From Burkholderiaceae bacterium (GTDB taxonomy: Bacteria; Pseudomonadota; Gammaproteobacteria; Burkholderiales; Burkholderiaceae_C), in NCBI GenBank assembly GCA_016790175.1, contig JAEUPI010000108.1, positions 1 to 35,127 of the forward strand: a stretch of 35,127 nt of DNA. The letters run 5' to 3'. Shown in pieces: positions 4,402 to 35,127 of this stretch. Numbering within the stretch: position 1 is the stretch's first letter; each line of letters begins with the position of its first letter. Below the pieces are notes generated by a model. The model had not been told where the DNA came from, made no database searches, and saw only the letters and a list, made by a program, of their open reading frames with translations. The translations under genes were made by a program, and so were the position numbers.

Positions 4402-4402
4402 G

Positions 4403-4933
4403 TCAGGTCTTGCGCAGCCGCGCCGAAAAAGTGCGTTTGAACTTCTCGACCTTGGGTGCCACCACGAATGCGCAGTAGCCCTGCCCTGGATTGCGCGCGA
4501 AATAGTGCTGGTGATACGCCTCGGCTCGCGAATAGTTGGCCAGCGGAGCCAGCTCGGTGACAACGCGACCCTTCAACTGTGCATTGACCTCGGCCAGCAC
4601 CTCGCGTGCCACCGATTCCTGCTCGGCATCGGTGGTGTAGATGCCCGATCGGTATTGCGTCCCGATGTCGTTGCCCTGGCGGTTGCGCGTGGTCGGGTCG
4701 TGGATGGTGAAGAAGATCTCGAGCACCTCGCGCAGGCTGATGCGCTGCCGATCGAACGTCACGCGCACGACCTCGGCATGGCCGGTCTGCCCGCTGCACA
4801 CCTGCTCGTAGCTCGGCTCGGCCACGTGCCCGTTGCTGTAACCCGACTCGACGGCGATCACGCCATCGACCTGTTCGTACACGGCTTCGAGGCACCAGAA
4901 GCAGCCACCGGCCAACGTGATGACGTCGTTCAT
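4403..4933 (-). CDS. msrA: peptide-methionine (S)-S-oxide reductase MsrA
   Basis: 176 residues, full length for MsrA. It reduces the S epimer of methionine sulfoxide in proteins and free methionine. The catalytic motif GGCFWC is at residues 9-14 with the nucleophile C11, followed by GYSNG and the conserved GHAEVVRVTFD and FFTIHDPTTRNRQGND segments. No signal peptide is visible, so it acts in the cytoplasm. A good ribosome binding site, GAAGGA, stands 6-7 bases before the ATG. It is the first gene of the run that continues with the ABC/DUF3299/TonB-receptor genes and is separated from them by a single base, which is an unusual partnership. Confidence 0.96.
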   Translation of the reverse strand: MNDVITLAGGCFWCLEAVYEQVDGVIAVESGYSNGHVAEPSYEQVCSGQTGHAEVVRVTFDRQRISLREVLEIFFTIHDPTTRNRQGNDIGTQYRSGIYTTDAEQESVAREVLAEVNAQLKGRVVTELAPLANYSRAEAYHQHYFARNPGQGYCAFVVAPKVEKFKRTFSARLRKT

Positions 4934-4961: not shown

Positions 4962-4979
4962 TGCGGCGTAGTCGCCGCA
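4962..4979 (-). promoter_or_regulatory. inverted repeat in the msrA leader
   Basis: Perfect 7-base inverted repeat TGCGGCG/CGCCGCA with a 4-base loop, 29 bases upstream of the msrA start codon. It can form a hairpin in the leader RNA or be a dyad operator. No T-run follows, so it is not a typical terminator. I see no AT-rich Zur-type palindrome in this interval. Confidence 0.4.
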
Positions 4980-5131
4980 AGTGCGGTCACGCTTACAGCG
5001 CCCGCCATTGTGCCCAGCCAGACCACAGGCGGTAACAGCGGGTTTCTGCGCGGCCTTTTTTCACGCGTTGTGATCCGGGCCGCAGCGCAGAATCGCCGTC
5101 CACGATCGCTGCAGCTCGCAACAGAAGAACC

Positions 5132-6058: not shown

Positions 6059-6086
6059 TGCCGCGCAGTGACTGCACGGACTCCAA

Positions 6087-6104
6087 TGCCTGTCACGACA
6101 GGCA
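6087..6104. repeat. perfect inverted repeat, 8-base arms
   Basis: TGCCTGTC-AC-GACAGGCA is a perfect dyad with a 2-base spacer, 59 bases beyond the ubiD stop codon. The near-absent loop suits a protein-binding dyad or a tight hairpin. No function can be assigned from sequence alone. Confidence 0.4.
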
Positions 6105-6162
6105 AATGAAAGATACGCCTCGCCGGACGCGAAAGCAAGAGCCGGGCAGGCTCGGTCGGGTC

Positions 6163-7722: not shown

Positions 7723-7753
7723 GATTTTTGTCTAAGAGTATTAGGTCTTATGA

Positions 7754-7783
7754 TTGACCAGTTATTTGTGGGATCCATAGAAT
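7754..7783 (+). promoter_or_regulatory. predicted sigma-70 promoter for the lytic transglycosylase gene
   Basis: TTGACC (7754-7759), an 18-base spacer, then TAGAAT (7778-7783): five of six matches to each consensus box. It lies in a clearly AT-rich pocket between the divergent ubiD and transglycosylase genes. The expected transcript would begin near 7790 with a leader of about 160 bases to the start chosen here. Confidence 0.5.
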
Positions 7784-7949
7784 TCGGCCGCATCGACAGC
7801 TCAAGGGTTTACCCGATGGGCTGGAGCTATGGAACTCTCGATCCGGCCGGCGCATTATGTTCGGCATGGCGAGCGGGCCGAAGACCCACCGAGAACCTCG
7901 TCACACACTCAGCAGTGCGCACGTGAACGATAAACCCGTCCGACACCGA

Positions 7950-8855: not shown

Positions 8856-8928
8856 CCCGTCGCCACTCGCTTTCGGCTTGGTTGGCCGGTTCTGGCGCAC
8901 TCGGGGCGTCGGCTAGACTTCCCTTCTC

Positions 8929-9030
8929 GCGCAACTGGCGACTGCGCCCCGAGCAACCGGGGCCCGAGGTGGGACACCACCGGGGAGCGCGACCGGCACT
9001 CTTGCCGGGTTCCGCCGTTCGCCTGGGCAG
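8929..9030 (+). ncRNA. ZTP riboswitch (pfl motif) upstream of glyA
   Basis: The region holds the conserved parts of the pfl/ZTP aptamer in order: ACTGGCG near 8933, the GTGGGACACCAC hairpin with CCGGGGAGCG (about 8969-8990), a variable hairpin (GGCACTCTTGCC), and the 3' conserved CCG..CGCCTGGGCA ending at 9029. The class senses ZTP/ZMP, the alarmone of 10-formyl-tetrahydrofolate shortage, and turns on one-carbon genes; glyA is a known target. The glyA start codon lies 76 bases beyond. The mechanism (translation or termination control) cannot be read with certainty; I see no strong T-run after the aptamer. A weak -10-like TAGACT is at 8914-8919. Confidence 0.88.
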
Positions 9031-9105
9031 CCCGAGCCATGCGCGGCCATCGTGCCGGAGGCATGCCTCGTCGGCAGACCAACCGCAGCGACAGGCCATA
9101 ACACC

Positions 9106-10353: not shown

Positions 10354-10382
10354 CGCGCGCCCCAGCGCGATCGCCGTACGCC

Positions 10383-10826
10383 ATGCGCTGTCCGTTCTGC
10401 AGCCACGACGAGTCCCAGGTCGTCGAGACCCGCGAGTCGGATGAAGGCGATGTGATCCGCCGGCGCCGGCGCTGCCTCGGCTGCGACAAGCGCTTCACGA
10501 CCTACGAACGCGCCGAGGTCTCGCTGCCGGCGATCGAGAAGAAGGATGGCTCGCGCGTCGAGTTCGACCTCGCCAAGCTGCGCGCATCGATGCAGCTGGC
10601 GCTGCGCAAGCGTCCGGTCAGCACCGAACAACTCGACGCGGCGCTCGATCGCATCCAGGACAAGCTCAGGGCCACCGGCGCGCGCGAAGTCAGCAGCGCC
10701 CGCGTCGGCGAGCTGGTGATGCGCGAGCTCAAGCGCCTCGACAAGGTGGCCTACGTCAGGTTCGCTTCGGTGTACCGCAGCTTCGAAGACGTCGACGAGT
10801 TCCGCCGGCTGATCCGCGACATCTGA
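10383..10826 (+). CDS. nrdR: transcriptional repressor NrdR
   Basis: 147 residues. An N-terminal zinc ribbon has C3/C6 and C31/C34 (MRCPFC and CLGC), followed by the ATP-cone domain (about 49-139, [18 protein letters not shown]). NrdR binds ATP/dATP and represses ribonucleotide reductase genes through NrdR boxes. The glyA-nrdR order is frequent in beta- and gammaproteobacteria. It is probably co-transcribed with glyA. Two hairpins follow the stop codon. Confidence 0.97.
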
Positions 10827-10865
10827 GCGTTCTCGACGCCGGCCCGATGCGTCGGCCCACCGCGA

Positions 10866-10888
10866 GCCGCCGCAAACACCGCGGCGGC
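10866..10888 (+). terminator. hairpin after nrdR
   Basis: Perfect 8-base stem GCCGCCGC/GCGGCGGC with a 7-base loop AAACACC, about 40 bases after the nrdR stop. There is no T-run; it may be a Rho-assisted or weak terminator. Confidence 0.4.
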
Positions 10889-10935
10889 ACGCCCTGCGAG
10901 GCTCCCCCGACCGGGTGCCCCCATCCGGGTCCACC

Positions 10936-10964
10936 GCTGGTGGCGTGGGTCCGAGCCCACCAGC
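10936..10964 (+). repeat. inverted repeat upstream of the pilin genes
   Basis: GCTGGTGG/CCACCAGC arms, with nested alternatives (CCACC-GCT-GGTGG and GTGGG/CCCAC). It is located between nrdR and the first pseudopilin gene, so it may terminate the former or be a control site for the latter. Neither can be decided from sequence. Confidence 0.3.
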
Positions 10965-11034
10965 GGGCGAAGCGGCGCGGCAGCGTGATTCCTACAGTGG
11001 TCTGCATCCCAACCCCGCACGACAGGAGCAGACC

Positions 11035-11580
11035 ATGAACACCCCTCGCATACTCCGCAGCCGCCAACGCGGCGTCAGCGCCGTCGAAGCCATGATCGTC
11101 ATCGCCATCATCGGCATCCTTGCCGGCGTGACCATGCCCGAGCTCGAGCCCCTGCGCGAACGCGCGGAGCTGCTGGGTCTGGCCTCGCAGGTCGAGACCG
11201 ATGTACACCTTGCGCGCAGCGAGGCCGTGTCGCGCAATCGGACCGTCCGTCTCACGGTTCGGGCGACGAATGGCGCGACCTGCTACCTGGTACACGAAGG
11301 CCCTGCACCGTCGTGCACCTGCCTCGATGTCGCCGGCGGACGATGCAACGCGCCGGGCGTGATCCGGACTCTGGGCCTGCCGGCAGACGGCCGCGTGCAG
11401 TTGCGGGCCAACACCGGCAGCCTGACCTTCGACCCGCTGAAGGGGACCGTCACGCCGGCCGCCACGCTGCGGGCCGAAGCGCGCACGGGCCACACGGTTC
11501 ACCAGGTGGTGAGCCTGCTGGGTCGCGTGCGCAGTTGCAGCCCGGGCGGCAGCGCCACGCTCGGCATGCCGGCTTGTTGA
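11035..11580 (+). CDS. FimT/GspH-type pseudopilin (first copy)
   Basis: 181 residues. It carries a type IV prepilin leader: RQRG at 10-13, then VSAVEAMIVIAIIGILAG with the conserved E5 of the mature protein, to be cut after G13 by PilD. The hydrophobic helix is followed by a GspH/FimT domain. Cysteines follow the pattern CYLVH...CTC...C and end CSPGG...MPAC, almost certainly disulfides. FimT-like minor pilins prime pilus assembly and can bind DNA in some species. The ATG at 11035 has ACAGGAGC just upstream; it opens the pilin cluster. The gene at 12134 is a paralogue with the same cysteine layout. Confidence 0.86.
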   Translation: MNTPRILRSRQRGVSAVEAMIVIAIIGILAGVTMPELEPLRERAELLGLASQVETDVHLARSEAVSRNRTVRLTVRATNGATCYLVHEGPAPSCTCLDVAGGRCNAPGVIRTLGLPADGRVQLRANTGSLTFDPLKGTVTPAATLRAEARTGHTVHQVVSLLGRVRSCSPGGSATLGMPAC

Positions 11581-11669
11581 TTCAGACGGGTCGACGAGCG
11601 GTCGCCGGCGGTTGATGAGCGGCCGTTCGTCCTCTTCGTCGAAATCGGACGGTTACAGATAATCGTGAC

Positions 11670-12128
11670 ATGCGTCACAGCCCACGAGCCGAACGCTTCG
11701 ATGAGGGATTCACCCTGATCGAGCTGATGATCGTGGTGGCGCTCGCCGCCTTGCTGCTGACGATTGCGCTGCCGATGTACCAGGAGTCGACGCGCAAGGG
11801 GCGCCGTGCCGAGGCCGTCGCGGCGCTGACCCAGCTGTCGCAGGCTCAGGAGCGGTATCGGGCCAACAACACCGCGTATGCCACGACGTTCGCGGCCATG
11901 GTGCCGCAGCCTGCCAGCTCGACGCCGCACTACACGCTGAACATCGCTGCCGCGGCGGCGAGCAGCTACACGCTGACCGCCACGGCCAAGGCCACGTCAC
12001 CTCAGTTTGCCGACACGAACTGCCGCGTGTTGTCGCTGGCCGCCGCGGCCGGCAATATGGTGTACGAGTCGACCGACGCCGGCGGAACCGTCGACACCAC
12101 CAACGCCAAGCGCTGCTGGGCGCGCTGA
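11670..12128 (+). CDS. pilE: PilE-like type IV minor pilin
   Basis: 152 residues. The leader is MRHSPRAERFDEG, then FTLIELMIVVALAALLL with E5, the standard class III signal cut by PilD. The body has the PilE-like helix (YQESTRKGRRAEAVAALTQL) and a short beta domain with two cysteines at the C-terminus (C in TNCRV and KRCWAR) that mark the D-loop. No ribosome binding site is visible, and a -10-like GATAAT ends only 6 bases before the ATG, so a leaderless message is possible. It lies between the two FimT-like genes and 5 bases before the second. It may be a minor rather than the major pilin, because of its cluster position. Confidence 0.85.
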   Translation: MRHSPRAERFDEGFTLIELMIVVALAALLLTIALPMYQESTRKGRRAEAVAALTQLSQAQERYRANNTAYATTFAAMVPQPASSTPHYTLNIAAAAASSYTLTATAKATSPQFADTNCRVLSLAAAAGNMVYESTDAGGTVDTTNAKRCWAR

Positions 12129-12133
12129 CCCTC

Positions 12134-12682
12134 ATGCCACGCTCGCACGGTGTCACGATGATCGAGCTGTTGATCGTGCTCGTCGTGCTGGGCGTGCTCG
12201 CCGCCGTGGTCGGCCCGTCGTTCCGGGGCATGATGGTGCGCCAGCGCGTGCAGGGCGTCCACGACCAGCTGGTCACCGACCTGCAGCTGGCGCGCTCGGA
12301 GCTGGCCGCACGGGCGAACGCGACAGCGCCGACCGATGTGGCCGTCACCTTCGGCGGCAATGCGGCACTGAGCTGCTACACGATCCACACCGCCGGTGCC
12401 GCTTGTGACTGCACCGCCGCGCCAGGTTCGGCCTGCGCGCCGGGCGCCCAAGAGATCAGGACCGTGCAGATCCAGCGCGCGCAGGGCATCAGCCTCGCGG
12501 CATCGAGCACCAGCGGCACGGTTCTCCGGTTCCAGCCACCGCAAGGCACGATCACACCGACCGACCTGACCGTCACCGTGTCAGGCGACCCGAGCGGCCA
12601 GCTGCGCACGCAGCTGAGCGTGGTGGGCCGCCCGAGCGTCTGCTCGCCCGACGGCTCGATGAAAGGAGTTCCCACATGTTGA
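12134..12682 (+). CDS. FimT/GspH-type pseudopilin (second copy)
   Basis: 182 residues. A very short leader MPRSHG precedes VTMIELLIVLVVLGVLAA with E5. The body follows the FimT/GspH plan, with QLVTDLQLARSELAARAN and cysteines in CYTIH...CDC...C, ending VCSPDGS..VPTC. It matches the first copy over its full length at the level of cysteine spacing and the terminal CSP motif. The last 7 bases overlap the start of pilW, whose ribosome binding site (AAAGGAG) lies inside this gene. Confidence 0.85.
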   Translation: MPRSHGVTMIELLIVLVVLGVLAAVVGPSFRGMMVRQRVQGVHDQLVTDLQLARSELAARANATAPTDVAVTFGGNAALSCYTIHTAGAACDCTAAPGSACAPGAQEIRTVQIQRAQGISLAASSTSGTVLRFQPPQGTITPTDLTVTVSGDPSGQLRTQLSVVGRPSVCSPDGSMKGVPTC

Positions 12683-13368
12683 TGCATGGAACGGATCGCG
12701 CGCACCCCGCACGTCGACAACGCGGACTGTCGCTCGTGGAGCTGATGGTCGGCGTCGCCGTCGGATTGTTCGTGGTGGCTGGCGCCACGATGCTGGTGGC
12801 CAACCAGCTCGGCGACAACCGCCGCCTGCTGCTCGAAACGCAGATCCAGCAGGATCTGCGCGCCGCCGCCGACATCGTCGCGCGCGATATCCGGCGTTCC
12901 GGTTACTGGGGTGCCGCGCAGACCGGCGTCTGGTACGCCGGCTCGCCTGGTGTGACCGCGAATCCGTACACCAACCTGGCGCCTGCCGTCAGCGGCAGCG
13001 CGGCCAGCAGCGTGGCCTTCAACTACTCGCGCGGTGTCGAGAACAACACGATTGACGCCGCCGAGCAGTCGGGCTTCCAGCTCAGCAATGGCGTGATCCA
13101 GATGCGCGTCGGCGGCAATTGGCAACCGCTGACCGACGACCGCACGTTGCGCATCACGAACTTCCAGGCCACGATGACGGCAAACCCGATCACGTTGTCG
13201 TGCTTCCTGCCCTGCGGCGCGATGGCCAACTGCCCGCCGACCCAGACGGTGCGTGAAGTCGAAGTCGTGATCGAGGGCCGGGCCGTGGCCGACGCCAACG
13301 TGCGGCGCTCGGTGCGCAGCAACGTGCGGCTGCGCAACGATCTGGTCGCCGGCGCCTGCCCCACCTGA
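12676..13368 (+). CDS. pilW: PilW-like minor pilin
   Basis: 230 residues. Leader ...ARRQRG then LSLVELMVGVAVGLFVVAGA with E5. The next segment, QIQQDLRAAADIVARDIRRSGYWG, is typical of PilW proteins (the IRRAGY motif). The C-terminal part has three cysteines (LSCFLPC and NCPP) and a late beta segment VREVEVVIEGRA. PilW is a minor pilin of the priming complex at the pilus tip. It overlaps the second FimT-like gene and is followed after 14 bases by pilX. Confidence 0.9.
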   Translation: MLMHGTDRAHPARRQRGLSLVELMVGVAVGLFVVAGATMLVANQLGDNRRLLLETQIQQDLRAAADIVARDIRRSGYWGAAQTGVWYAGSPGVTANPYTNLAPAVSGSAASSVAFNYSRGVENNTIDAAEQSGFQLSNGVIQMRVGGNWQPLTDDRTLRITNFQATMTANPITLSCFLPCGAMANCPPTQTVREVEVVIEGRAVADANVRRSVRSNVRLRNDLVAGACPT

Positions 13369-13382
13369 TGCGGGAGACAGCC

Positions 13383-14666
13383 ATGCAGACCCAGATTTAC
13401 CGCTCCTCGCATCGGCAACGCGGCGCTGCCGCGCTGCTGGTGGTCGTCGTGCTGTTCTTCATCCTCGCGCTCGTGTCCGCCTACGCGAGCCGCAACCTGA
13501 TCTTCGAGCAGCGCATCTCGGCCAACAACCAGCGCGCCACGCAGGCCTTCGAGGTCGCCGAGGCGGGTGTCGAGTTTGCGATCGCGTCGTTGGGAGCGGG
13601 ACGTGTCGACGCTGCCTGTGTCGCGACCACCAATACGGCCTACACGTCGTTCCGCCAACGCCACGTGACGGTCGACAGCACGGGTACCTTCAGCGTGGCG
13701 CCGGCGCAGACCAACCGTCGACCGACCTGCATGGTGCTGGCCGCCGGCACCGACTGCAGCTGCCCGGACGGCAATCCCTCGCTGGTGGTGCCTGTGGGCA
13801 CTGCTGTGGCGCCGACATTCCAGCTGCGTTTCGACGCCCCCGTCGCGCAGCCGGGCGTGGTGCGCGTGACCTCGCGTGGCTGCAGCAGCATCGGCACGCA
13901 GTGTTATGCGGGTGCTGCGGCCGCCGCCGATGCCGAAGCCGAGGTGTCAGTCCTGCTCGGCCTGAACTCGGCACTGGCGACGCCGCCGAGCGCGGCACTC
14001 ACCGCGAAGGGCAGCGTCAACCTCAGCGGCGGCGGCGCCTCGATCGCCAACACCGACGCACCGAGCGGCGGCATTACCGTCAATGCCGGCGGCGCGCTCA
14101 ACAACGCGGGCGCAGCCACGCTGCGTGGCCTGCCCGGCACGCCACCCGCGAATACCGTGCAGGCGAACGACAACTCGCTGTCGGTCCTCACCGCGGACAG
14201 CCTGTTCGTTTCGTTGTTCGGCATGGACCGCGCGACCTACCGCTCCCAGCCGGCCGTCGTGCGTGTGACCTGCGGCGCCGACTGCGACCTGCAGATCGCG
14301 CAGGCGGTATCCGACAACCCCGGCCGCGTCGTGTGGGCCGAAGGCGACGTCACTTTCGATGCCAACCGCGTGCTCGGCACGGCGGCCGAACCGGTGCTGT
14401 TGTTCGTGCGGGGCAACGTCACCGTGTCGGCCAATCTGCAACTGACGGGCATGCTGTACCTGCACTCGGCAGGGGGCGCCAACACGCTGAGCGTCACGGC
14501 GGGGACTACACAGCTGTTCGGCGCGGTCGTGACCGAGGGCGCACTCACGGTCACCGGCGCGCCGACGATCTCGTTCGATCCGGCCATCCTGCGCACGATC
14601 GGTCTGACCCAGGGCTCGCTCGTGCGCATTCCTGGGAGCTGGCGCGACTTCGCGGCAGGGAGCTGA
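13383..14666 (+). CDS. pilX: PilX-like minor pilin with long C-terminal domain
   Basis: 427 residues, about twice the usual PilX length. The N-terminus HRQRG-AAALLVVVVLFFILALV lacks the E5 of other pilins, as PilX/GspK-type proteins often do, and is followed by NLIFEQRISANNQRATQAFEVAEAGVEFA, the PilX-N motif (given here only by its ends: NLIFEQ to GVEFA). From about residue 200 onward the sequence is Ala/Gly/Asn/Thr-rich with repeated beta-type segments (GNVTVSANLQLTGMLYL, VTEGALTVTGAPTI), suggesting a beta-helix-like surface domain. The ATG at 13383 was preferred to 13368 because GGGAGA lies 6 bases upstream. pilV starts 2 bases after it. Confidence 0.85.
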   Translation: MQTQIYRSSHRQRGAAALLVVVVLFFILALVSAYASRNLIFEQRISANNQRATQAFEVAEAGVEFAIASLGAGRVDAACVATTNTAYTSFRQRHVTVDSTGTFSVAPAQTNRRPTCMVLAAGTDCSCPDGNPSLVVPVGTAVAPTFQLRFDAPVAQPGVVRVTSRGCSSIGTQCYAGAAAAADAEAEVSVLLGLNSALATPPSAALTAKGSVNLSGGGASIANTDAPSGGITVNAGGALNNAGAATLRGLPGTPPANTVQANDNSLSVLTADSLFVSLFGMDRATYRSQPAVVRVTCGADCDLQIAQAVSDNPGRVVWAEGDVTFDANRVLGTAAEPVLLFVRGNVTVSANLQLTGMLYLHSAGGANTLSVTAGTTQLFGAVVTEGALTVTGAPTISFDPAILRTIGLTQGSLVRIPGSWRDFAAGS

Positions 14667-26636: not shown

Positions 26637-27758
26637 TCAGCGTTTGGGCTGCGGCGGCGTCGAGAACGCGCGGATGAAGCGGCGGTCGATCCAGTCCTTC
26701 CACAGCCACGCCCAGCGCCCTTGCGCCGACCAGTCGCCCCAGGCCGCAATGGCCCGGCGCTCGCCGCACGACAGCAGGTACAACGAGCGCTCCTGCGCCC
26801 GCCATGGCAGCAGTTGCCCGCCGGCCAGTGCCCGGCGCAGGTTCAGTGCCAGTGCCGGGCCGGCGCGCACGGCGTAGACACCGCTGCGCGGCACCGCGTG
26901 GTCCTGCCGTGAGGCGACGTCGCCAGCGGCGAACACCTGCGGATGCGACGTGCTTTGCAGCGTCGTGCCGGTGGCGACGAAGCCGCGCTCGTCGAGCGCC
27001 AGGCCGCTGCCCTGCAACCAGGCCGGCGCGCTCGCCGGCAATGCCATCACCGGCACGTCGCACACCACACGCGCGCCGTTGTCGAGCAGCAGGTGTGTAT
27101 CGCCGACCTCCACGCAGCGCTGGTTGATCACGGTGATCCGTGCGCGCCGCAGGCGATCGAGCGCACGCTGCCGCGTTGCGGCCGGAAAGCCGGGCAGCAC
27201 CGATGCGTCGCCGGTGACCAGGCACACGCGCACGCGCGAGCCGTCGTCGCCGCCGAGCCGGTGCTGCAGTGCCATCGCCACCTCGAAGCCCGCAGCGCCA
27301 CCGCCGACCACCACCACGTCGAGCACGCGTGCGCGCGCCAGTTCGATCACACCGTCGAACAGCTTCACGAAGTGCTCGATCGGCCGGATGAAGAGCCCGC
27401 GTTCGCGCGCACCCGCGATCAGACCACGGTCCTGCGTCGCGCCGACATCGATCGAGAGCATGTCGTACTCGGCGACGCGTCCGTCGGAGAGCGTCACCGT
27501 GCGCTGCGCCGCATCGATGGCGGTCGCGGTGGCCAGCGCCAGCTCGACCTGCGCGGCCCGGGCCATCGGCTCGAGCGGTATCGCGCATTCGTCGATGCCG
27601 TAGTGGCCGGCAATGAAACCGGGCACCATGCCGCTGTAGACCTGCCGGGCAAACGGCGTCACCAACACCGCATGCACCCCGGGCATCGGCTCGCGTGCCA
27701 TTGCCGCGAGCACGTGCACATGCGCGTGCCCTCCCCCTACCAGCACGAGTCGCTTCAT
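26637..27758 (-). CDS. FAD-dependent pyridine nucleotide-disulfide family oxidoreductase (SelD-associated type)
   Basis: 373 residues. The N-terminal FAD motif is LVLVGGGHAHVHVLAA (4-19), a GGGHAH variant seen in the TIGR03169 group that is often fused to or placed beside selenide-water dikinase SelD. A second nucleotide-binding motif is VVVVGGGAAGFEVAMAL, and the FAD end motif is VFAAGDVAS. No redox CxxxxC is present, so it is NDH-2/sulfide:quinone-reductase-like rather than a dithiol enzyme. The electron donor and acceptor are unknown. It is the last gene of the minus-strand run 35127-26637; the upstream DUF3047 gene ends 25 bases before its start. Confidence 0.87.
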   Translation of the reverse strand: MKRLVLVGGGHAHVHVLAAMAREPMPGVHAVLVTPFARQVYSGMVPGFIAGHYGIDECAIPLEPMARAAQVELALATATAIDAAQRTVTLSDGRVAEYDMLSIDVGATQDRGLIAGARERGLFIRPIEHFVKLFDGVIELARARVLDVVVVGGGAAGFEVAMALQHRLGGDDGSRVRVCLVTGDASVLPGFPAATRQRALDRLRRARITVINQRCVEVGDTHLLLDNGARVVCDVPVMALPASAPAWLQGSGLALDERGFVATGTTLQSTSHPQVFAAGDVASRQDHAVPRSGVYAVRAGPALALNLRRALAGGQLLPWRAQERSLYLLSCGERRAIAAWGDWSAQGRWAWLWKDWIDRRFIRAFSTPPQPKR

Positions 27759-27783
27759 CGGATCGCGGTGTTGTTGTGCGTTT

Positions 27784-28506
27784 TCATTGCAGCGCCAGAT
27801 CCCCCACCAGGGCCAGACTGCGACCCAGCGTATTGTCGGCGTCTCCGGCCACCAGCACGGCCTTCAGCGGCGGCAGATTGCGCGATTCGTCGCCGAACAG
27901 GTGCACGAAGTCTTCGCGCAGATCGCGCTGCTCGCGCCGCCACGACTGGAGCGGCTCGTCGCTGCCGCGCAGCACCAGCCAGCGCACGCGGCGTGTGTAG
28001 GGACTGTCGAGCACCGTGCCGGCGCGCTGGCGTGGATCCCACGCGTAGCACAGCGTAGCGGCCGGCAGGTCTTCCCCAGAGAACACGCGCGCCAACCGCA
28101 GCAGCTGGCGCTCGAAGAACGGGATCGCCTCGAGCGGATGATCGAACAGCACGCACACAGCCGCCGCGTGGTCGTCGCCGCTCTTCTGGCGCAGATCGGT
28201 CTGCGGATTGTCGCGCTCGATGCGCCAGCGCCACGACAGCTGCGTCGCCTTGACCGGCGTCGCCCATTCGTGCACCAGGTTGCCATAGGAGCCCTGCGCG
28301 TCGATCTCGATGGCGCGTCCGCCCTCGGTGCTGACCACGCGATAGCGCGTCAGCGGCAGCTTCTGCTTCGGCAGGCCGACGAGCCGCCAGGGTGGCGCCG
28401 GTTCGGATGCGGCGCCGGCCGGGTCAGACACCAGACCCGCCGATGCAGACCAGACGGCGCTCGCGCCGAGCACACCGACCCCGACTGCCTTCGCCCAACC
28501 CTTCAT
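27784..28506 (-). CDS. DUF3047 family secreted protein
   Basis: 240 residues with an N-terminal signal peptide (hydrophobic about 6-23). DUF3047 features that I recognise are LSWRWRIERDNPQTDLRQKSGDD (only the ends shown: LSWRWRIE and KSGDDHAAAVCVLF), LCYAWD near the centre, and RWLVLRGSDEPLQSW. The C-terminus VLVAGDADNT is also conserved in the family. Its fold and role are unknown; a periplasmic ligand-binding function is a guess. It lies 39 bases after the VTT/FAD fusion gene and 25 bases before the next gene, so it is part of the same unit. Confidence 0.85.
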   Translation of the reverse strand: MKGWAKAVGVGVLGASAVWSASAGLVSDPAGAASEPAPPWRLVGLPKQKLPLTRYRVVSTEGGRAIEIDAQGSYGNLVHEWATPVKATQLSWRWRIERDNPQTDLRQKSGDDHAAAVCVLFDHPLEAIPFFERQLLRLARVFSGEDLPAATLCYAWDPRQRAGTVLDSPYTRRVRWLVLRGSDEPLQSWRREQRDLREDFVHLFGDESRNLPPLKAVLVAGDADNTLGRSLALVGDLALQ

Positions 28507-28545
28507 CGGGCGCAGGATAACCCGCCGTGCCCGTGGATCATGTCG

Positions 28546-30696
28546 TCAGCCGCGCCGCCACGCATGCACGCGCTCCACCCAGCGCAACAGCGCCACCGGC
28601 TGATGCGCACGCTTCCACTCGCCGGCAGCGTACTTGTTGGCCTCGGCGAGCGTGGGATAGGTGTGGATGGTGCCGAGGATCTTGTTGAGCCCGATGCCGT
28701 GCCGCATCGCGAGCACGTATTCGGCGAGCAGGTCGCCGGCGTGCTCGCCGACGATGGTGACGCCCAGAATACGGTCCTTGCCGGGCACGGTGAGCACCTT
28801 GACCCAGCCGTGCGCCGCCGAATCGGCGATCGCGCGGTCGAGGTCGTCGATGCCATAACGCGTCACCTCGTACGGAACGCCCTTGTCCTTCGCCTCTTGC
28901 TCGTTGAAGCCGACGCGTGCCACCTCGGGGTCGATAAAGGTCGCCCACGGGATCACCGAGTAGTCGGCCTTGAATCGCTTGAGCCAGCCGAACAGACCGT
29001 TGACCGATGCATACCAGGCCTGGTGCGCCGCCGTGTGCGTGAACTGGTACGGACCGGCCACATCGCCGCAGGCCAGGATGTTCGGATAGATCGTCTGCAG
29101 GTACTCGTTGGTCTCGATCGTGCGCTGCGCCGGGATGCCCAGCTCCTCGAGGCCGTAGCCCTTGAGCCGGGCGACGCGGCCGACGGCGCAGATCAGCGCA
29201 TCGAACTCGATGCGCGTCTCGCGCCCTGAGGCCTCGACGACGATCGCCTTCACGCCGCCGGCCGACTCGCAGCGCAGCGCCTTGTGACCGGTGAGCACGC
29301 GCACGCCGTCGGCCTCGAGCGCGCGCTGCGAGAAGGCCGACACCTCCTCGTCCTCGCGCACCAGGACGCGCGGCAGCATTTCGATCTGCGTCACCTGCGA
29401 CCCGAGCCGCGCGAAGGCCTGCGCCAGCTCGCAGCCGATCGGCCCGCCGCCGAGCACGACCAGGCGCCCAGGCCGCTCCCGCAGCTGCCACAGCGTGTCG
29501 CTCGTCAGCACGCCCGCCTCGGCCAGCCCGGGCAGCGGCGGCACGAAGGGCGCGGCACCGGTGGCGACGACGATGGCGCGGGTGGCGAGCAGCTGCGTGC
29601 TGCCGTCGGCCCGCGTGATCTGCACATGCCAGGGATCGACGATCTTCGCGCTGCCCTGCACCACGTCGACGCCGAGCCCGGTGTAGCGTTCGACCGAATC
29701 GTGCGGTTCGATCTCGCGCACGACCTGCGCAACGCGATCCATCACCTGCGCGAAGTCCATGCGCGCGTCGGCCTGCGCGATGCCGTACTTGGCGCTCCGG
29801 CGCATCTGGTGCATCAGCTTCGCGGTCTTGATCAGCGCCTTGCTCGGCACGCAGCCGTAGTTCAGGCAGTCGCCGCCCATCTTGTGGGCCTCGACCAGCG
29901 TCACCTTGGCCTTCACCGCCGCGGCGATGTAGCTCGACACCAGACCCGCCGCACCGGCGCCGATGACCACGAGGTTGCGGTCGTAGCGTGCCGGCCGGCG
30001 ATCGGCCCAGCGCGCATAGACCTTTCGCGCCTGGACCCACTCGATGATCTTCTTGGCGACCAGCGGAAACACGCCAAGCAGCACGAAGGAACCCAGCAAG
30101 GCCGGCGACAGGATGCCCTTGAGCGATTCGATCTTCGCCAGCTGCGTGCCCGCATTCACGTAGACGATCGTGCCGGCCAGCATGCCGAGCTGGCTGACCC
30201 AGTAGAAGGTCGCGGCCTTCATCTTCGTCAGCCCCATCAGCAGATTGATCACGAAGAACGGGATCAGCGGCACCAGCCGCAGCGTGAAGAGGTAGAACGC
30301 GCCGTCGCGCTGCACGCCCTTGTCGATCTCGGCCAGCCGCGCGCCGAATCGCGACTGCACACTGTCGCGCAGCAGGAAGCGCGCCACCAGGAAGGCCAGC
30401 GTCGCACCGATGCTGGAGGCGAACGACACGACCACCGTGCCGACGACCAGGCCGAAGATGCCGCCGCCGGCCAGCGTGAGGATGGCCGCGCCCGGCAGCG
30501 AGAGCGCGGTCACGGCCACGTAGACGGCGAAGTAGGTACCGATCACCAGCGCGGGCTTTGCGGCGTACAACGCCGCAAAGTCGGCCTGACGCGCCTTGAC
30601 GTACTCCAGGCTGAAATAGCGCCCGAGGTCGAACGCGAAGAAGGCGACCACCAGCGCCGCCAGGATCGCCCACATCAGCAGCTGGTTCTTCTTCAT
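28546..30696 (-). CDS. fusion: TVP38/VTT membrane domain plus FAD-dependent dithiol oxidoreductase (mercuric reductase-like)
   Basis: 716 residues. Residues about 1-220 hold a VTT (SNARE-associated, DedA/TVP38/YdjX-type) membrane domain with several helices and the AGGGIFGLVVGTVVVSFASS-type motif (76-95). Residues about 238-716 are a class I pyridine nucleotide-disulfide reductase: FAD site G246-x-G248-x-x-G251, redox pair C277/C282 in GGDCLNYGCVPSKA, and C-terminal H678 in HTYPTLAEA, the active-site base. The protein lacks the extra N-terminal HMA and C-terminal cysteine pair of MerA, so mercury is not implied. It should place a dithiol-reducing flavoenzyme at the inner membrane. The ATG at 30696 follows AAAGG; upstream in-frame codons lie in the spacer. 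Neighbours resemble the E. coli ydjX-ynjF locus. Confidence 0.92.
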   Translation of the reverse strand: MKKNQLLMWAILAALVVAFFAFDLGRYFSLEYVKARQADFAALYAAKPALVIGTYFAVYVAVTALSLPGAAILTLAGGGIFGLVVGTVVVSFASSIGATLAFLVARFLLRDSVQSRFGARLAEIDKGVQRDGAFYLFTLRLVPLIPFFVINLLMGLTKMKAATFYWVSQLGMLAGTIVYVNAGTQLAKIESLKGILSPALLGSFVLLGVFPLVAKKIIEWVQARKVYARWADRRPARYDRNLVVIGAGAAGLVSSYIAAAVKAKVTLVEAHKMGGDCLNYGCVPSKALIKTAKLMHQMRRSAKYGIAQADARMDFAQVMDRVAQVVREIEPHDSVERYTGLGVDVVQGSAKIVDPWHVQITRADGSTQLLATRAIVVATGAAPFVPPLPGLAEAGVLTSDTLWQLRERPGRLVVLGGGPIGCELAQAFARLGSQVTQIEMLPRVLVREDEEVSAFSQRALEADGVRVLTGHKALRCESAGGVKAIVVEASGRETRIEFDALICAVGRVARLKGYGLEELGIPAQRTIETNEYLQTIYPNILACGDVAGPYQFTHTAAHQAWYASVNGLFGWLKRFKADYSVIPWATFIDPEVARVGFNEQEAKDKGVPYEVTRYGIDDLDRAIADSAAHGWVKVLTVPGKDRILGVTIVGEHAGDLLAEYVLAMRHGIGLNKILGTIHTYPTLAEANKYAAGEWKRAHQPVALLRWVERVHAWRRG

Positions 30697-30766
30697 CGCG
30701 CTGCAGCCTTTCGTCGTCGTGTGTCCGGGCTTCTCGGTCGCCGGCGGCGGGCGCACCTTACAGCAA

Positions 30767-31372
30767 TCAGCCGAACGCGCGCCAGCCCGCAAACACCCGG
30801 GTCACGAAGGTCAATGCGCACAGCACGGCGAAGCCATAGGCGAACACATCGAACCAACCCGGCAGCACGCACATCAAGGCAAAGCAGATCAGCGTCTCGC
30901 TCGCCTCGGTGAGGCCGCCCAGGTAGAAGAAGCCCTTGCGCGGAAACGCCGCGCTGGCGAGACCTCGACGCTCGGCCAGCACGGCAAACGCGAGAAAGCT
31001 CGAACCGGTGCCGACGAAGGCGGCCAGCAGCACCGCGGCCGGCAACGCGCGCGTGGCCGGTTCGGCAATCGCAAAGGCCAGCGGGATGCTGGCATAGAAC
31101 ACGAAGTCGAGCACGATGTCGAGGAACGCACCACGATCGGTGGGCTGGGTGCAGCGCGCCACGGCACCGTCGAGCCCGTCGCACAAACGGCTGGCGAGCA
31201 TGAGGGCCAGACCGGCGGCGTAGGCCCCCCGTGCGATCGCGGTGGCCGCGGCGACACCGAGCGCGAAGCCTGTCCAGGTGACCCCATCGGCCCCGATGCC
31301 GAGCCGATGCAGCACACCGCCGGCCCGGTCGAGCGCCGGACGCAGCAGCGCGATCGCGGCGCGGTCAAGCAT
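30767..31372 (-). CDS. ynjF: CDP-alcohol phosphatidyltransferase family protein, YnjF-like
   Basis: 201 residues, almost the length of E. coli YnjF (206). Several membrane helices surround the CDP-alcohol transferase motif DGLDGAVARCTQPTDRG followed by AFLDIVLDF. The consensus has eight residues between AR and G; this protein has seven, so one residue is missing compared with PgsA. The family moves a phosphatidyl group from CDP-diacylglycerol to an alcohol, but the alcohol here is unknown. The start ATG at 31372 overlaps the end of the ATPase gene by 8 bases. Gene symbol by position and similarity only. Confidence 0.85.
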   Translation of the reverse strand: MLDRAAIALLRPALDRAGGVLHRLGIGADGVTWTGFALGVAAATAIARGAYAAGLALMLASRLCDGLDGAVARCTQPTDRGAFLDIVLDFVFYASIPLAFAIAEPATRALPAAVLLAAFVGTGSSFLAFAVLAERRGLASAAFPRKGFFYLGGLTEASETLICFALMCVLPGWFDVFAYGFAVLCALTFVTRVFAGWRAFG

Positions 31373-32024
31373 CGCGTATCTCCGCGGGCCGGGGCCGCAG
31401 GTTCGCGAGATCGATGACTGCACCGCCCGCGGGCACGTCGGCCGCGTCGTGCGTCACCAGCACCGCGCACACCTGCGAGCGGCGCAGATGGCTCCAGACG
31501 AACTCGCGCATCTGCGCGCGCAAGGCCGCATCGAGCCGCGAGAACGGCTCATCGAGCAACACCACCCGCGGTGCCGCCAGCAGCGCACGCAGCAGCGACA
31601 CGCGGGCACGCTGCCCGCCGGAAAGCGTGTGCGGACAGCGCGCGCCGAATCCGGCGAGCCCAGCCTCGGCCAGCGCGGCCTCGGCGCGCGCCACGCGCTC
31701 GGCACGGGCGCCCTTCGGCAATGCGAACAGCAGGTTCTGCAGCACGCTCATGTGCGGATAGAGCAGATCGTCCTGGAACAGCAGCGCCACGCGGCGCTGC
31801 TCGATCGGCCGTGCGCCAAGATCATGCCCGTCCAACCGCAGCTCGCCCTGGGCCACCAGCGGCGGCTGCAGGCTGCCGGCAATATGGGCGAGCAGCGAAC
31901 TCTTGCCGCTGCCGCTTTCGCCCATCAGCGTGAGCACCTCACCCGGCTCGATGCGCGCATGCAGGCCCTCGACCAGCACCCGACCGGGCAGCGCGAGCGA
32001 GAGATCGATCAGCTCGAGCGCCAT
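31365..32024 (-). CDS. ynjD: ABC transporter ATP-binding protein, YnjD-like
   Basis: 219 residues (E. coli YnjD 217). Walker A GESGSGKSS, signature LSGGQRARVSLLRALL, Walker B VVLLDEPFSRLDAAL, and H-loop VLVTHDAADV are all present. It is of the thiamine/sulfate/iron-type importer ATPase group. It starts 8 bases after the permease gene ends. The longer open frame to 33518 is permease sequence out of frame and was rejected. Confidence 0.92.
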   Translation of the reverse strand: MALELIDLSLALPGRVLVEGLHARIEPGEVLTLMGESGSGKSSLLAHIAGSLQPPLVAQGELRLDGHDLGARPIEQRRVALLFQDDLLYPHMSVLQNLLFALPKGARAERVARAEAALAEAGLAGFGARCPHTLSGGQRARVSLLRALLAAPRVVLLDEPFSRLDAALRAQMREFVWSHLRRSQVCAVLVTHDAADVPAGGAVIDLANLRPRPAEIRDA

Positions 32025-32032
32025 TGCTTCGT

Positions 32033-33688
32033 TCAGGCGCTGCGCCTGCGCAGCCAGCCCGCGACACCGAATGCCGCCAGCGGCAGGACCGCCTGCCACA
32101 GCGCATAGACGGCCGCCACCTGCCGCTGACCGCCGGCCGACAAGGTGACGGCCTCCGTGGTCACCGTGGCGAAGCGTCCGGCGCCGATGAACAGCGTCGG
32201 CAGATACTGCGCCAGCGCAACGGCAAAACCCACCGCCAGTGCCGCGCCGATCGGCGAGCGTTGCATCGGCCATTTGGCAAGCCACCAGTAGGCGAACCGG
32301 CTGCGCCCGAGCGATCGCGCCGTGGTCTCGTAGCGGCCATCGAAACCGCGCCACGATGGTGCCAGCACGATCAGCGCATAGGGCAGCACGACGATCACGT
32401 GCACCCACAGCAGACCGACGAGGCTGCCGTCGAGCCGCAGCGCCAGCGCGCCCTGGTACAGCCCCACCAGCAGCAGCAGCGGCGGCACGGCCAGCGGCGC
32501 CAGCAACACGGGCGCCAGTTTGGCGTCGCCATGCGCCGGCACGCACTCGAGCCAGGCCACCGCGAGCACGAGCGCGAGCGCGCTGGCGGCGGCCGCCAAA
32601 GCCGCGCTGAAGGCCAGCGTGGCGGGTACCGCAGCGTGCCACCAGCCGAGCGCATTCCAGTCGTCGGGCAGCAGACGCGGAAACGGCCACGGGCCGGCGC
32701 CGGCAGCCAGCAACAGCAATGCGAGCGCCAGCGCATAGCTCGTGATCACGATCGCCAGCACCGCCCGCACACCGGCGCGACGCCAGGCATCGACGATCGA
32801 CGACGTCGTGCGCGGCCCGCGACTCGCGGCCCGCAGCGCCATGCGCCGCCACCACGCGATCGCGGCAATACCGAGAAGGGCGGCCACCAGCAGCGTGGCC
32901 GTCAACGTGATCACCTGAGCCGCACCGACGGCCTGCGCCTGCACGTCGCCGTCGAGCAGGGCCTGCCAGGCCAGCACGGCGAGCGGCGGCGGTGCCAGCG
33001 GGCCCACCACGAGGGCCACGTCGACCACCGACAGGCCATACGCCAGCACCGCCAGCAGCGGCCAGCCGAGGCGCGGCAGCAGCCAGGGCCACCAGACGCG
33101 CCACCACAGCGCGGTCGGCCGCCAGCCGAGCGTCTGCGCCTGCAGCCGATGGCGCTGCAGCTGCTCGGCCAGTTCGGGACGCGCCAGCAGCGCGACCATG
33201 TTCCACAACAGGAACGGAAACTCCTTGAGCACGAGCACCGCGGTCATCGCGAGGCCGGTCTGGTCGTGCACCGTGTGCCAGTCCGGCGGCGCCGATTGCC
33301 CCAGCGCGTGCGCCAGCAAGCGCGCCAGCAGACCGCTCGGCATCACCAGCAGCGCACAGCCGATCGCGAAGGCGGCATGCGGCACCGCGAGCATCGGGGC
33401 CAGCGCCGCATCGAGCCATGCCCATGCGCGGCTGCCGTGCAGATGCGCGGTCAGCAGCATCGCGAGCAGCAGCGACAGCAAGGTACTCGTGATCGCGATG
33501 CGTACACTGGCCCACCACGAAAGCACGAGCTGCGGGTCAGCCACCATCGCGATCCAGGCCGATACGCTGCTGCCTTCGCGCAACGCAAGCACCAGGCCGG
33601 CACCGAGCGGCACCACGAACACCGCGGCGAACAGCGTCAGCGCGACGGCACGGCCGACGCGCCAAGCCCGGCTCTGAGGCGCCGTCAT
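32033..33688 (-). CDS. ynjC: ABC transporter permease with two fused permease modules, YnjC-like
   Basis: 551 residues, about twice a single permease, with roughly twelve hydrophobic segments in two halves (E. coli YnjC 511). The first half runs from AVALTLFAAVFVVPLGAGLVL to about 290; the second starts near VLAIVITSYALALALLLL. It forms the complete channel for the YnjB-type binding protein. The ATG at 33688 (MTAPQSR) was chosen; the frame upstream to 33841 overlaps the binding-protein gene and lacks membrane features. Confidence 0.9.
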   Translation of the reverse strand: MTAPQSRAWRVGRAVALTLFAAVFVVPLGAGLVLALREGSSVSAWIAMVADPQLVLSWWASVRIAITSTLLSLLLAMLLTAHLHGSRAWAWLDAALAPMLAVPHAAFAIGCALLVMPSGLLARLLAHALGQSAPPDWHTVHDQTGLAMTAVLVLKEFPFLLWNMVALLARPELAEQLQRHRLQAQTLGWRPTALWWRVWWPWLLPRLGWPLLAVLAYGLSVVDVALVVGPLAPPPLAVLAWQALLDGDVQAQAVGAAQVITLTATLLVAALLGIAAIAWWRRMALRAASRGPRTTSSIVDAWRRAGVRAVLAIVITSYALALALLLLAAGAGPWPFPRLLPDDWNALGWWHAAVPATLAFSAALAAAASALALVLAVAWLECVPAHGDAKLAPVLLAPLAVPPLLLLVGLYQGALALRLDGSLVGLLWVHVIVVLPYALIVLAPSWRGFDGRYETTARSLGRSRFAYWWLAKWPMQRSPIGAALAVGFAVALAQYLPTLFIGAGRFATVTTEAVTLSAGGQRQVAAVYALWQAVLPLAAFGVAGWLRRRSA

Positions 33689-33716
33689 CGGGATCGCGGC
33701 CGCATGCACGCCGCGG

Positions 33717-34910
33717 TCAGGACACCCCGTAGCGCCGCGTCCACTCGCGTTCGAGCGGCTCGACCCAGCTGCCGTGCGGCTCGGGCACCGTGGGTGCGGC
33801 CCGTTGCACGGCGCCAGCCACGCGGGCGGCGTCGAAGGCACCGCGCAGCCCGGCCGGCAACTTGTCGATCGCCAGCACCGTGGGGTCGCCCCAGACGGCC
33901 ACGTCGGCCTTGCGCGCCTGGGCCGCGGGCGACATCAGGAAGTTGATCGCCACCTGCGCACCCTCTTTCGCCCGGGCGTTGAACGGGATCGCGAGGAAGT
34001 GCGTGTTGCCGATCGTGCCGCTGCCATGCTGATAGGCCTGCACCGACGCGGGCAACGCCTTGGTCGCGATCAGGTTCGCCGCCTCGTTGGGATTGAAGCT
34101 CAGCGCAATCGCGATCTCGCCGTCGGCCAGCATCTGCCGGGCGGCGGCGGGTGTGGCCGGGAACTGCTTGCCCTGCCGCCACAGGTGTGGATGCAACGCG
34201 TCGAGGTAGGTCCACAGCGCCGGCGTCAGTGCGTCGAAGGCCTCGCGTGTCATCGGCTTGCCTAGCGGCTGTCGATCACCGCCCTGCTCGACCAGCACCT
34301 GCTTCAGGAAGGTGGTACCGATGAACTGCGGCGGCCGCGGATAGGTGAAGCGCCCGGGGTTGGCCTGGGCCCAGGCCAGCAGCTCGCTCATGCCGTCGGG
34401 CAACTTGGACACACGCGCACGGTCGGCCATGAAGGTGAACTGCGCCATGCCCCACGGCGCCTCGAAGCCGTCGACCGGCTCGGAGAAATCGAGTCGCGTC
34501 GTCGGCTTGCCGGCGGTGTCGACGAACGCGAACGACGGCAGCGACTCGGCGAACGGCCCGAACAACAGCGCCTCGCGTTTCATTGCGAGGAAGTTCTCGC
34601 CGTTGATCCAGACCATGTCGACCGAGCCGTCGCTGCGGCCGGCGGCCTTCTCGGCGCGCACGCGGCGCACGGCCTCGGCGGTGTCGGTGACCTTCACATG
34701 TTCGAGCTGGATGCCCTGCAGACGCTTCAGCTCGCCCGCCGCCCACTGCAGATAGGCATTGACGCGCTCGCTGCCGGCCCAGGCATTGAAGTAGACGGTC
34801 TGCCCTCGGGCCGCCTGCTCGATGCGCGACCAGGCAGCCTGTGCGCGCGCGGCCAGCGGCAGCCCGAGGCCGCCGAGGATCAGCTGCCGTCGACTCAGTG
34901 AATGGATCAT
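33717..34910 (-). CDS. ynjB: ABC transporter substrate-binding protein, YnjB-like, Tat-exported
   Basis: 397 residues. The N-terminus has a twin-arginine motif SRRQLILGG (6-14) and ends in AARAQA (20-25), a Tat signal peptide. The mature part is a class of iron/sulfate/spermidine-type solute-binding folds: AWAGSERVNAYLQWAAGEL, VDMVWINGENFLAMK, GTIGNTHFLAIPFN. It matches YnjB in length (388 in E. coli). Tat export suggests folding with a cofactor or metal in the cytoplasm (inference). Its ligand is unknown. It starts 19 bases after the DoxX-like gene and is followed by the permease gene after 28 bases. Confidence 0.92.
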   Translation of the reverse strand: MIHSLSRRQLILGGLGLPLAARAQAAWSRIEQAARGQTVYFNAWAGSERVNAYLQWAAGELKRLQGIQLEHVKVTDTAEAVRRVRAEKAAGRSDGSVDMVWINGENFLAMKREALLFGPFAESLPSFAFVDTAGKPTTRLDFSEPVDGFEAPWGMAQFTFMADRARVSKLPDGMSELLAWAQANPGRFTYPRPPQFIGTTFLKQVLVEQGGDRQPLGKPMTREAFDALTPALWTYLDALHPHLWRQGKQFPATPAAARQMLADGEIAIALSFNPNEAANLIATKALPASVQAYQHGSGTIGNTHFLAIPFNARAKEGAQVAINFLMSPAAQARKADVAVWGDPTVLAIDKLPAGLRGAFDAARVAGAVQRAAPTVPEPHGSWVEPLEREWTRRYGVS

Positions 34911-34929
34911 CGGGCGATTTTCATGCCCC

Positions 34930-35127
34930 TCAGACCGGCAGCGCGCCGGCGCCGCGGCCGCGCATCCAGCGGGGCGCCAGCCACGTGCCGTCGACCGACC
35001 ACCGCCCCGGCCCCCACAGCACGATGCCGAGCAGCAGGCTGCCCCAGAACACATGCTGCTGGAGCGCGGCGTCGGCCACCTCCATCAGGCTGATCACGGC
35101 CACCGCATTCAGCATGAACAGGCCCAA
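34930..35127 (-). CDS. DoxX-like membrane protein, C-terminal part (starts outside the window)
   Basis: The 65-66 C-terminal residues of a frame that is open to the right edge. Two hydrophobic segments (LFMLNAVAVISLM and HVFWGSLLLGIVLWGPG) and the pattern FMLNAVAVIS...ALQQHVFWG...GPGRWSVD match DoxX/TQO-small-subunit proteins. DoxX members include subunits of thiosulfate:quinone oxidoreductase and redox-linked membrane proteins. It lies 19 bases upstream of the binding-protein gene, in the same direction, so it is probably the first visible gene of this operon. Confidence 0.72.
   Translation of the reverse strand: MGLFMLNAVAVISLMEVADAALQQHVFWGSLLLGIVLWGPGRWSVDGTWLAPRWMRGRGAGALPV

Follow-up and report, generated by a model that had tools for sequence, protein, structure and literature searches.

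What system do the eight genes at one end of contig JAEUPI010000108.1 belong to, and what does it do? This contig of a Burkholderiaceae bacterium (assembly GCA_016790175.1) was analysed at its full length of 35,127 nucleotides, hereafter the window, and is one entire contig (C222) of a genome assembled to 3.93 Mb, split over 283 contigs and 82% complete. A sequence-only reading had described eight co-oriented minus-strand genes at 26637..35127, encoding a DoxX-like protein, YnjB, YnjC, YnjD, YnjF, a fusion of a VTT domain to an FAD-disulfide reductase, a DUF3047 protein, and an oxidoreductase of the SelD-associated type. All eight were found, in the families named and with the tight spacing described (gaps of 25, 39, 70, 8, 28, and 19 bases, plus one overlap between ynjD and ynjF). 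We propose that they would be the downstream part of an envelope-stress operon controlled by an extracytoplasmic function (ECF) sigma factor, whose upstream part encodes a copper-binding peptide of the bufferin type. That the bufferin, YnjBCDF, and redox genes form one co-regulated module is put forward with considerable confidence, and on balance we also favour a functional link of this module to selenium.

The window stops inside doxX (34930..35127, minus strand), of which it holds the last 65 codons. Its final 141 bases are identical to the first 141 of contig C21, an exact overlap, and C21 is the sole other contig of the genome that matches the window end over this length. The operon continues on C21 (L004) on the same strand, with the rest of doxX at L004:1-426. 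The join is supported by a genome of the window's own family (G107), since it holds the whole set on a single 4.39 Mb contig and on one strand, in the order TIGR03169-DUF3047-fusion-YnjF-YnjD-YnjC-YnjB-DoxX-DUF2063-DUF692-DUF2282; there, the fusion and YnjF genes are separated by a P-type ATPase gene on the opposite strand, and the divergent ECF gene is preceded by one for a TlpA-like protein. The joined DoxX, which is BufD/HvfX-like, matches PF07681 (60.9 bits, cut-off 23.6) and reaches 55.4 bits with the HvfX model NF050144, under its cut-off of 80. Beyond it, also on the minus strand of C21, follow genes for a DUF2063 protein (439-1260; PF09836, 59.9 bits, cut-off 27.2), a DUF692 maturase of the MNIO type (1257-2102; PF05114, 311.8 bits, cut-off 25; 308.6 bits with the narrower BufB model, cut-off 310), and a DUF2282 bufferin precursor of 91 residues (2144-2419; PF10048, 90 bits, cut-off 22.4), in which four cysteines follow a hydrophobic N-terminal stretch, as judged by eye. 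All the features of a type-1 bufferin cluster (DUF2282 with four cysteines, DUF692, DUF2063, and DoxX) were thus found, and by its predicted families this is the gene set of such a cluster. Divergent from it, on the plus strand of C21 (2539-3099), lies the gene for an ECF sigma factor that belongs to TIGR02943 (244.2 bits, cut-off 162.2); the small protein encoded after it is zf-HC2-like (20.4 bits, just under the cut-off of 22.2). Bufferins are described in passages of PMC12452194 as copper-chelating modified peptides, and an excerpt of PMC10304878 presents the Cupriavidus gig operon as copper-induced and divergent to an ECF gene.

The motif TGTAAG-N16-CGAC was found on the minus strand at both halves of the joined operon: before bufA, the DUF2282 gene (C21:2480-2505), and in the 70-base gap between ynjF and the fusion gene (30737..30762), 40 bases before the fusion ATG. 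In addition, a copy with N17 spacing (4971..4997, minus strand) lies 37 bases upstream of msrA (4403..4933, minus strand), a candidate co-regulated gene for a methionine-S-sulfoxide reductase (TIGR00401, 196.1 bits, cut-off 108.1). Other sites in the same genome are located inside the ECF gene and before msrP (C111; MsrP is also named YedY), a gene for a putative selenate binding protein (TIGR04553) divergent from egtD (C272), and a gene on C179 whose product is related to TIGR03169 (155.2 bits, under the cut-off), while two have no clear target. For the survey, nine aligned YnjB proteins served as query against genome contigs, giving at least 571 confirmed stretches, of which the best 80 were kept and scored with profiles built for this analysis; many of these loci end at contig ends. 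Across the 1.33 Mb of these 80 loci, TGTAAG-N16/17-CGAC occurs at 36 sites, against 6 for the reversed and 6 for the complemented motif, although five of these sites fall within the ECF gene on its own strand and are artefacts, and two more lie in that reading frame on the opposite strand. The spacing was N16 at 28 sites and N17 at 8, with at most two at every other spacing from 8 to 26. Within 260 bases upstream, the motif was detected for 6 of 7 DUF2282 genes, 7 of 21 fusion genes, and 10 of 80 ynjB genes, and for none of the ynjC, ynjD, ynjF, DUF692, DUF2063, DoxX, DUF3047, or TIGR03169 genes. It can precede ynjB where the stretch examined holds no bufferin gene (L046, L074, and the deltaproteobacterial L106), and it lies 28 bases upstream of a lone ynjB in L036. 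A search for sigma-70-type promoters between 26400 and 35127 found none, with 0.4 expected. These placements suggest that the two halves are probably co-regulated through the shared motif, and that the operon probably uses two promoters of one sigma factor. The single transcription unit of the sequence-only reading is therefore retained as far as the motif type common to both halves is concerned, and probably lost to the two promoters; unrelated promoters of the two halves, which that reading had named as evidence against itself, are the opposite of what the motif points to, because it precedes both the DUF2282 gene and the fusion.

The same grouping recurs elsewhere. In the 80 loci, YnjC was present in 68, YnjD in 58, YnjF in 36, the fusion in 21, DUF3047 in 11, a TIGR03169-like protein in 12, DUF692 in 13, and an ECF factor in 17. 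All 13 DUF692-bearing loci also had ynjC, and five loci (L032, L035, L038, L042, and L057) combined DUF692, ynjC, the fusion, DUF3047, and TIGR03169. Restricting the analysis to loci with ynjC and with flanks of 8.5 kb or more on either side of ynjB left 20 of Burkholderiales type, as assigned from record titles, and 19 others. Among the former, the fusion was found in 14, DUF3047 in 9, and TIGR03169-like, DUF692, and ECF genes in 8 each, two of the eight TIGR03169-like genes (L058 and L071) being on the opposite strand and also matching SelD. Within Burkholderiales, the survey thus bears out the proposal that the ABC set and the redox genes form one grouping. The combination is found repeatedly there, with the amendment that doxX belongs to the bufferin cluster upstream, outside the window. 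In three loci (L074, L077, and L079), the fusion gene is divergent from ynjB. YnjC was not seen in the stretch examined in 12 of the 80 loci; two of these (L033 and L036) carry a lone ynjB at a different kind of chromosomal site, with a CoaD-like ORF among the neighbours, as read from the ORFs. A PMCA-type cation P-type ATPase gene lies in or beside the YnjBCD cluster in L227 (7773-10487), L055, L046, L066, and L087.

Relatives of YnjB were also found in 95 plasmid records. The E. coli IncC plasmid pYDC637 (L130, NZ_KP056256.1) carries, at 2898-13581, a cassette in the order DUF2282-DUF692-DUF2063-DoxX-fusion-TIGR03169-like FAD oxidoreductase-YnjB-YnjC-YnjD-YnjF together with a sigma factor; this order differs from that of the window, and no DUF3047 gene is annotated in it. 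Identities to the window proteins were 53% for the fusion, YnjD, and YnjF, 49% for YnjB, 45% over 69 residues for DUF2282, 39% for YnjC, 38% for TIGR03169 and DoxX, 37% for DUF692, and 32% for DUF2063. The 10.7 kb stretch occurs in 24 plasmid records, with at least 80% of it in 21 and at an identity of at least 99%, in hosts of the genera Klebsiella, Salmonella, Providencia, Escherichia, and Citrobacter; among 5426 complete E. coli genomes, 3 have it. The module, in one version, therefore moves between enterobacteria, and the preservation of the same families in an altered order suggests selection for the set. An IS66-type element lies just upstream of the pYDC637 cassette. On the S. meliloti replicon pSymB (L132), YnjBCD lies beside hrpB and ActS/ActR, as annotated.

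The individual genes of the window, all on the minus strand, fit the assigned families. YnjB (33717..34910), a predicted periplasmic binding protein, belongs to NF008633 (518.7 bits, cut-off 203) and matches E. coli YnjB with an E value of 8.1e-109; its AlphaFold2 model has a mean pLDDT of 91.6, and the predicted fold names no ligand. The fused permease YnjC (32033..33688) matches its E. coli counterpart at 5.7e-58 (phmmer) and has no Pfam match, its best NCBIfam match being ThiP at 39.1 bits, against a cut-off of 679. The ABC ATPase YnjD (31365..32024; PF00005, 111.4 bits) matches E. coli YnjD at 2.6e-52 and resembles ATPases of the ThiQ, PotA, and PhnT types, all under their cut-offs. For the CDP-alcohol phosphatidyltransferase YnjF (30767..31372 from an ATG, with a longer GTG-initiated ORF extending to 31423), the longer ORF reaches 30.9 bits with PF01066 (cut-off 22), and the match to E. 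coli YnjF has an E value of 6.6e-56. The ATG start at 31372 (ATGCTTGA), a position counted by hand from the sequence, gives an 8-base overlap with ynjD, and the GTG start one of 59 bases. The fusion (28546..30696) joins a VTT domain of TVP38/DedA-like type (PF09335, 80.5 bits) to an FAD-disulfide reductase (PF07992, 198.7 bits) in which the disulfide active site CLNYGC is kept. Both the reductase part and this site are shared with the mercuric reductase MerA (TIGR02053), which was considered and rejected: the score of 352.6 bits falls below the cut-off of 454.45, the VTT domain at the N-terminus is a difference, and there is no cysteine among the last 30 residues and thus no C-terminal cysteine pair, a feature of MerA. 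The DUF3047 protein (27784..28506; PF11249, 178.3 bits, cut-off 27) is apparently secreted, judging from its start. It has Cys118 and Cys153, typical of an operon-linked subgroup: among 12 DUF3047 ORFs of the survey, both cysteine patterns were present in 8, one in 2 (L035 and L038), and neither in 2 (L032 and the shorter of L037). Both were absent from eight DUF3047 proteins of genomes without YnjB (L114-L121) and from that of G074 (L228), near ynjB but on the opposite strand, so that in our alignment (A3) the pair marks operon-linked members and is gone from nine others. Finally, the FAD oxidoreductase encoded at 26637..27758 belongs to the SelD-associated family TIGR03169 (360.3 bits, cut-off 310) and is unfused to SelD.

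Evidence for the proposed link to selenium comes from several sides. The genes senA, senB, and selD are absent from the window contig and are located on C272 of the same genome, where SelD (426.5 bits), SenB (428.4, cut-off 300), SenA (503.8, cut-off 420), EgtD (366.6), and TIGR04553 (406.9) all exceed their cut-offs and the motif lies between the EgtD and TIGR04553 genes. SenB matches the solved selenosugar synthase 8fbx at 4e-98; PMC9814287 gives an overview of what SenC, SenB, and SenA each catalyse. Across the compared loci, the motif precedes MsrP genes in 7 genomes, MsrB-type genes at 6 sites, and genes for TlpA-like proteins at 4, as well as those for EgtD, TIGR04553, MsrA (the window and G238), and an ATP-grasp protein (2 each), and SelD, SenA, DUF547, and APH (1 each). 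Genes for this ATP-grasp protein were found at L080:18202-19551, L189:273-1640, and L242:13813-15252, with the motif in two genomes, and a homologue adjoins DUF547 on C272, the selenoneine contig of this genome. A Variovorax locus (L245) encodes a TIGR03169-SelD fusion immediately behind SenB. The sen genes adjoin the operon in G107, and SenA lies within about 25 kb of it in G233, G236, and G238, and within the same distance of the half comprising bufferin, YnjF, and fusion genes in G239, that is, in 5 of the 16 YnjB genomes with SenA over the cut-off (46 genomes searched). With a distance limit of 2 kb, chosen post hoc, the motif was found near SenA in 5 of 11 YnjB-bearing genomes and in 0 of 21 genomes of the order with SenA and without YnjB; at 7 kb, the figures were 6 of 11 and 2 of 21. 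Because of this split, the selenium wiring, where present, goes with YnjB-bearing genomes and not with selenoneine clusters generally. A sample of the class (n=229) comprised eight YnjB genomes and 221 others. SelD was present in 7 of the former and 42 of the latter (p 9.6e-5), TIGR03169 above its cut-off in 7 and 20 (p 1.1e-6), and DUF3047 in 7 and 59; the first two associations are not independent, as many TIGR03169 proteins are SelD fusions. In E. coli, an independent-component analysis of expression groups ydjXYZ-ynjABCD (printed as ynjXYZABCD) with ynjE, yjiLM, and yedEF, a putative selenium transporter, and its authors suggest a use of molybdenum and selenium, as stated in sections of PMC7888660; BaeR mildly raises ynjA and ynjB, according to an excerpt of PMC2731931. 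The guess of a selenium compound made from the window thus gained independent support from the SelD fusion, the motif common to selenoneine genes, and the E. coli expression module.

The direct observations are gene content, recurrence, motif placement, and co-occurrence; regulation, the YnjBCD cargo, and the role of YnjF are deduced from them. The mechanism that we infer would start with copper in the periplasm, or with a related signal of soft-metal or oxidant type, which would free the sigma factor from its small, zinc-finger-like candidate anti-sigma. The sigma factor would then transcribe bufABCD-ynjBCDF from the first promoter and the genes for the VTT/reductase fusion, DUF3047, and TIGR03169 from the second, at both of which the motif is observed. 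Bufferin would buffer copper, by analogy with what is published for the family, and the regulon would add methionine-sulfoxide reductases and, in this lineage, also SelD, SenA, EgtD, and the selenate-type binding protein, to judge from motif placement in some genomes. YnjBCD may import a selenium or sulfur compound, a tentative assignment to which we give somewhat less than even weight; the fusion and the TIGR03169 enzyme would help to reduce this cargo or to keep it reduced for SelD, and YnjF, in the weakest step, might change a lipid head group. As a whole, we consider it rather likely that the genes are one arm of an ECF envelope-stress regulon that combines copper buffering, methionine-sulfoxide repair, and selenium handling. 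A bolder version, in which the ECF factor joins copper defence to selenium metabolism and YnjBCD is a dedicated high-affinity importer of selenium compounds, from Burkholderiales to E. coli and plasmids, whose cargo feeds SelD and selenoneine, is unlikely as a whole; if true, selenoneine would act in envelope metal and oxidant defence. The motif, the SelD fusion, and the E. coli expression module give a first testable idea for the role of YnjBCDF, and the bufferin link supplies an inducing condition, copper, for testing it. A 2022 review states, in one part of its text, that no high-affinity selenium transport system had been identified (PMC9312934).

Several observations weigh against this picture. 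The own genome has 9 motif sites against 13 of the reversed motif, and 12 further genomes have 81 against 223; there is no genome-wide excess, and hence the evidence of the motif is that of its position. A query family lies 5-220 bases downstream of 60 of the 99 distinct sites classed across the compared loci, a count that is partly circular, as several query families came from the motif search itself; families independent of that search account for 28 sites (ynjB 10, fusion 11 after removal of one distant reductase, DUF2282 6, and DUF692 1). In G107, the strict motif precedes the fusion and not the bufferin genes, and on pYDC637, it is absent before the cassette genes, where the sigma factor is just 26% identical to that of the window. 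The 19 flank-filtered loci outside Burkholderiales had no fusion, DUF3047, or DUF692 gene, one TIGR03169-like gene, and two ECF genes. Given these counts and those of the 20 Burkholderiales-type loci, the combination of ABC set and redox genes is real but lineage-limited, and the co-occurrence anticipated from the window holds inside that order and is mostly missing elsewhere. As for selenium, selenoneine genes do not generally use the motif, the predicted YnjB fold matches binders of sugars, polyamines, metal-citrate, and nucleotides alike, and the E. coli module is more active anaerobically, which is not copper-like (in the same sections of PMC7888660). In addition, neighbours of the bufferin, TIGR03169, and DUF3047 kinds are missing from the E. 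coli locus.

It could be argued that two unrelated operons merely abut here and that doxX and the ABC genes were read together by accident, given that YnjBCD also occurs with other neighbours and that 67 of the 80 loci hold no DUF692 gene in the stretch examined. The plasmid cassette, in which these families stand together in another order, the recurrence in differently named genera, and the motif common to both halves make this a very improbable account. A more serious one takes the regulon as purely one of copper and oxidant stress in the envelope, with selenoneine, Msr, and bufferin as separate protections and with a cargo of YnjBCD that has nothing to do with selenium, for instance some thiol, cofactor, or metal complex. 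Bufferin genes and YedY under an ECF factor are known without selenium genes in Caulobacter, as passages of PMC3511200 indicate. The SenA cut-off is reached by only 16 of the 25 YnjB genomes assigned to Burkholderiales, and the under-cut-off likenesses of YnjC to ThiP and of YnjD to ThiQ, PotA, and PhnT agree with it as well. However, it leaves unexplained the co-occurrence of SelD, the TIGR03169-SelD fusion, and the co-expression with yedEF in E. coli (PMC7888660, in part), and we regard it as rather unlikely.

The genes could also form a lipid head-group system, in which YnjBCD imports an alcohol or sugar, an APH/choline-kinase-like and a DUF2064 nucleotidyltransferase-like protein activate it, and YnjF attaches it to a lipid, protecting the envelope. 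The presence of YnjF in 36 of the 80 loci, of an APH-type kinase in 7, and of GT2-DUF2064 genes in 8 (for the two kinds together, L059:13390-15845, L055, L046, L110, and others) speaks for this, as do the APH gene of L110, which is preceded by the ECF motif (Choline_kinase 23.6 bits, under the cut-off of 29), and a Roseivivax plasmid (L133) in which YnjF-YnjBCD is annotated beside PqiA/MlaD-type genes. However, the window operon, the only part of the genome inspected for them, showed neither an APH nor a DUF2064 gene, YnjF was not seen in 44 of the 80 loci, many of which end at contig ends, and the TIGR03169 and SelD link is left unexplained. This reading seems decidedly improbable next to the ECF-controlled stress regulon with a selenium link, which remains the one that we prefer. 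Outside these genes, a ZMP/ZTP riboswitch at 8921-9035 on the plus strand (50.9 bits, gathering threshold 39) was the one feature of the window to reach an Rfam gathering threshold.

Among known systems, the closest are Cupriavidus gigPABT and the sigmaF operons of Caulobacter, which share the DUF2282-DUF692-DUF2063-DoxX order and an ECF gene. According to passages of PMC3511200, the sigmaF regulon of Caulobacter comprises YedY and a pair of operons of the bufferin type, with the promoter GTAACC-N16-CGAA. That promoter was not the one found at this locus, where the related motif is TGTAAG-N16/17-CGAC, and YedY/MsrP is a member in both. The Caulobacter anti-sigma factor is NrsF (DUF1109), whereas the candidate here is zf-HC2-like. 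Compared with other bufferin clusters, the present one differs in that ynjBCDF continue in the same direction, that the fusion, DUF3047, and TIGR03169 genes are preceded by another copy of the motif, and that selenium genes carry it too; in the excerpt of PMC12452194, further conserved genes are given for extremely low proportions of bufferin clusters, under a 10-base gap limit for unrelated genes. The E. coli locus ydjXYZ-ynjABCDE with ynjF shares the homologues of YnjB, YnjC, YnjD, and YnjF and has VTT-domain proteins, which are unfused there and fused to the reductase in the window. Its ydjY, ynjA, and ynjE are not among the eight genes of the window, which is thus not of the E. coli operon type, and had no match in 80 loci (phmmer, E below 1e-5, flanks of up to 10 kb), the E. 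coli locus being the only one of 81 with them. The selenoneine cluster of senABC and egtD shares the motif in some genomes and, in Variovorax, includes the TIGR03169-SelD fusion; in the present genome it is on a separate contig, and no YnjB-type gene was seen in it. In conclusion, the system probably falls under the ECF-bufferin stress regulons, a type already described, to which this locus adds YnjBCDF with its redox partners and links to methionine repair and selenium genes.

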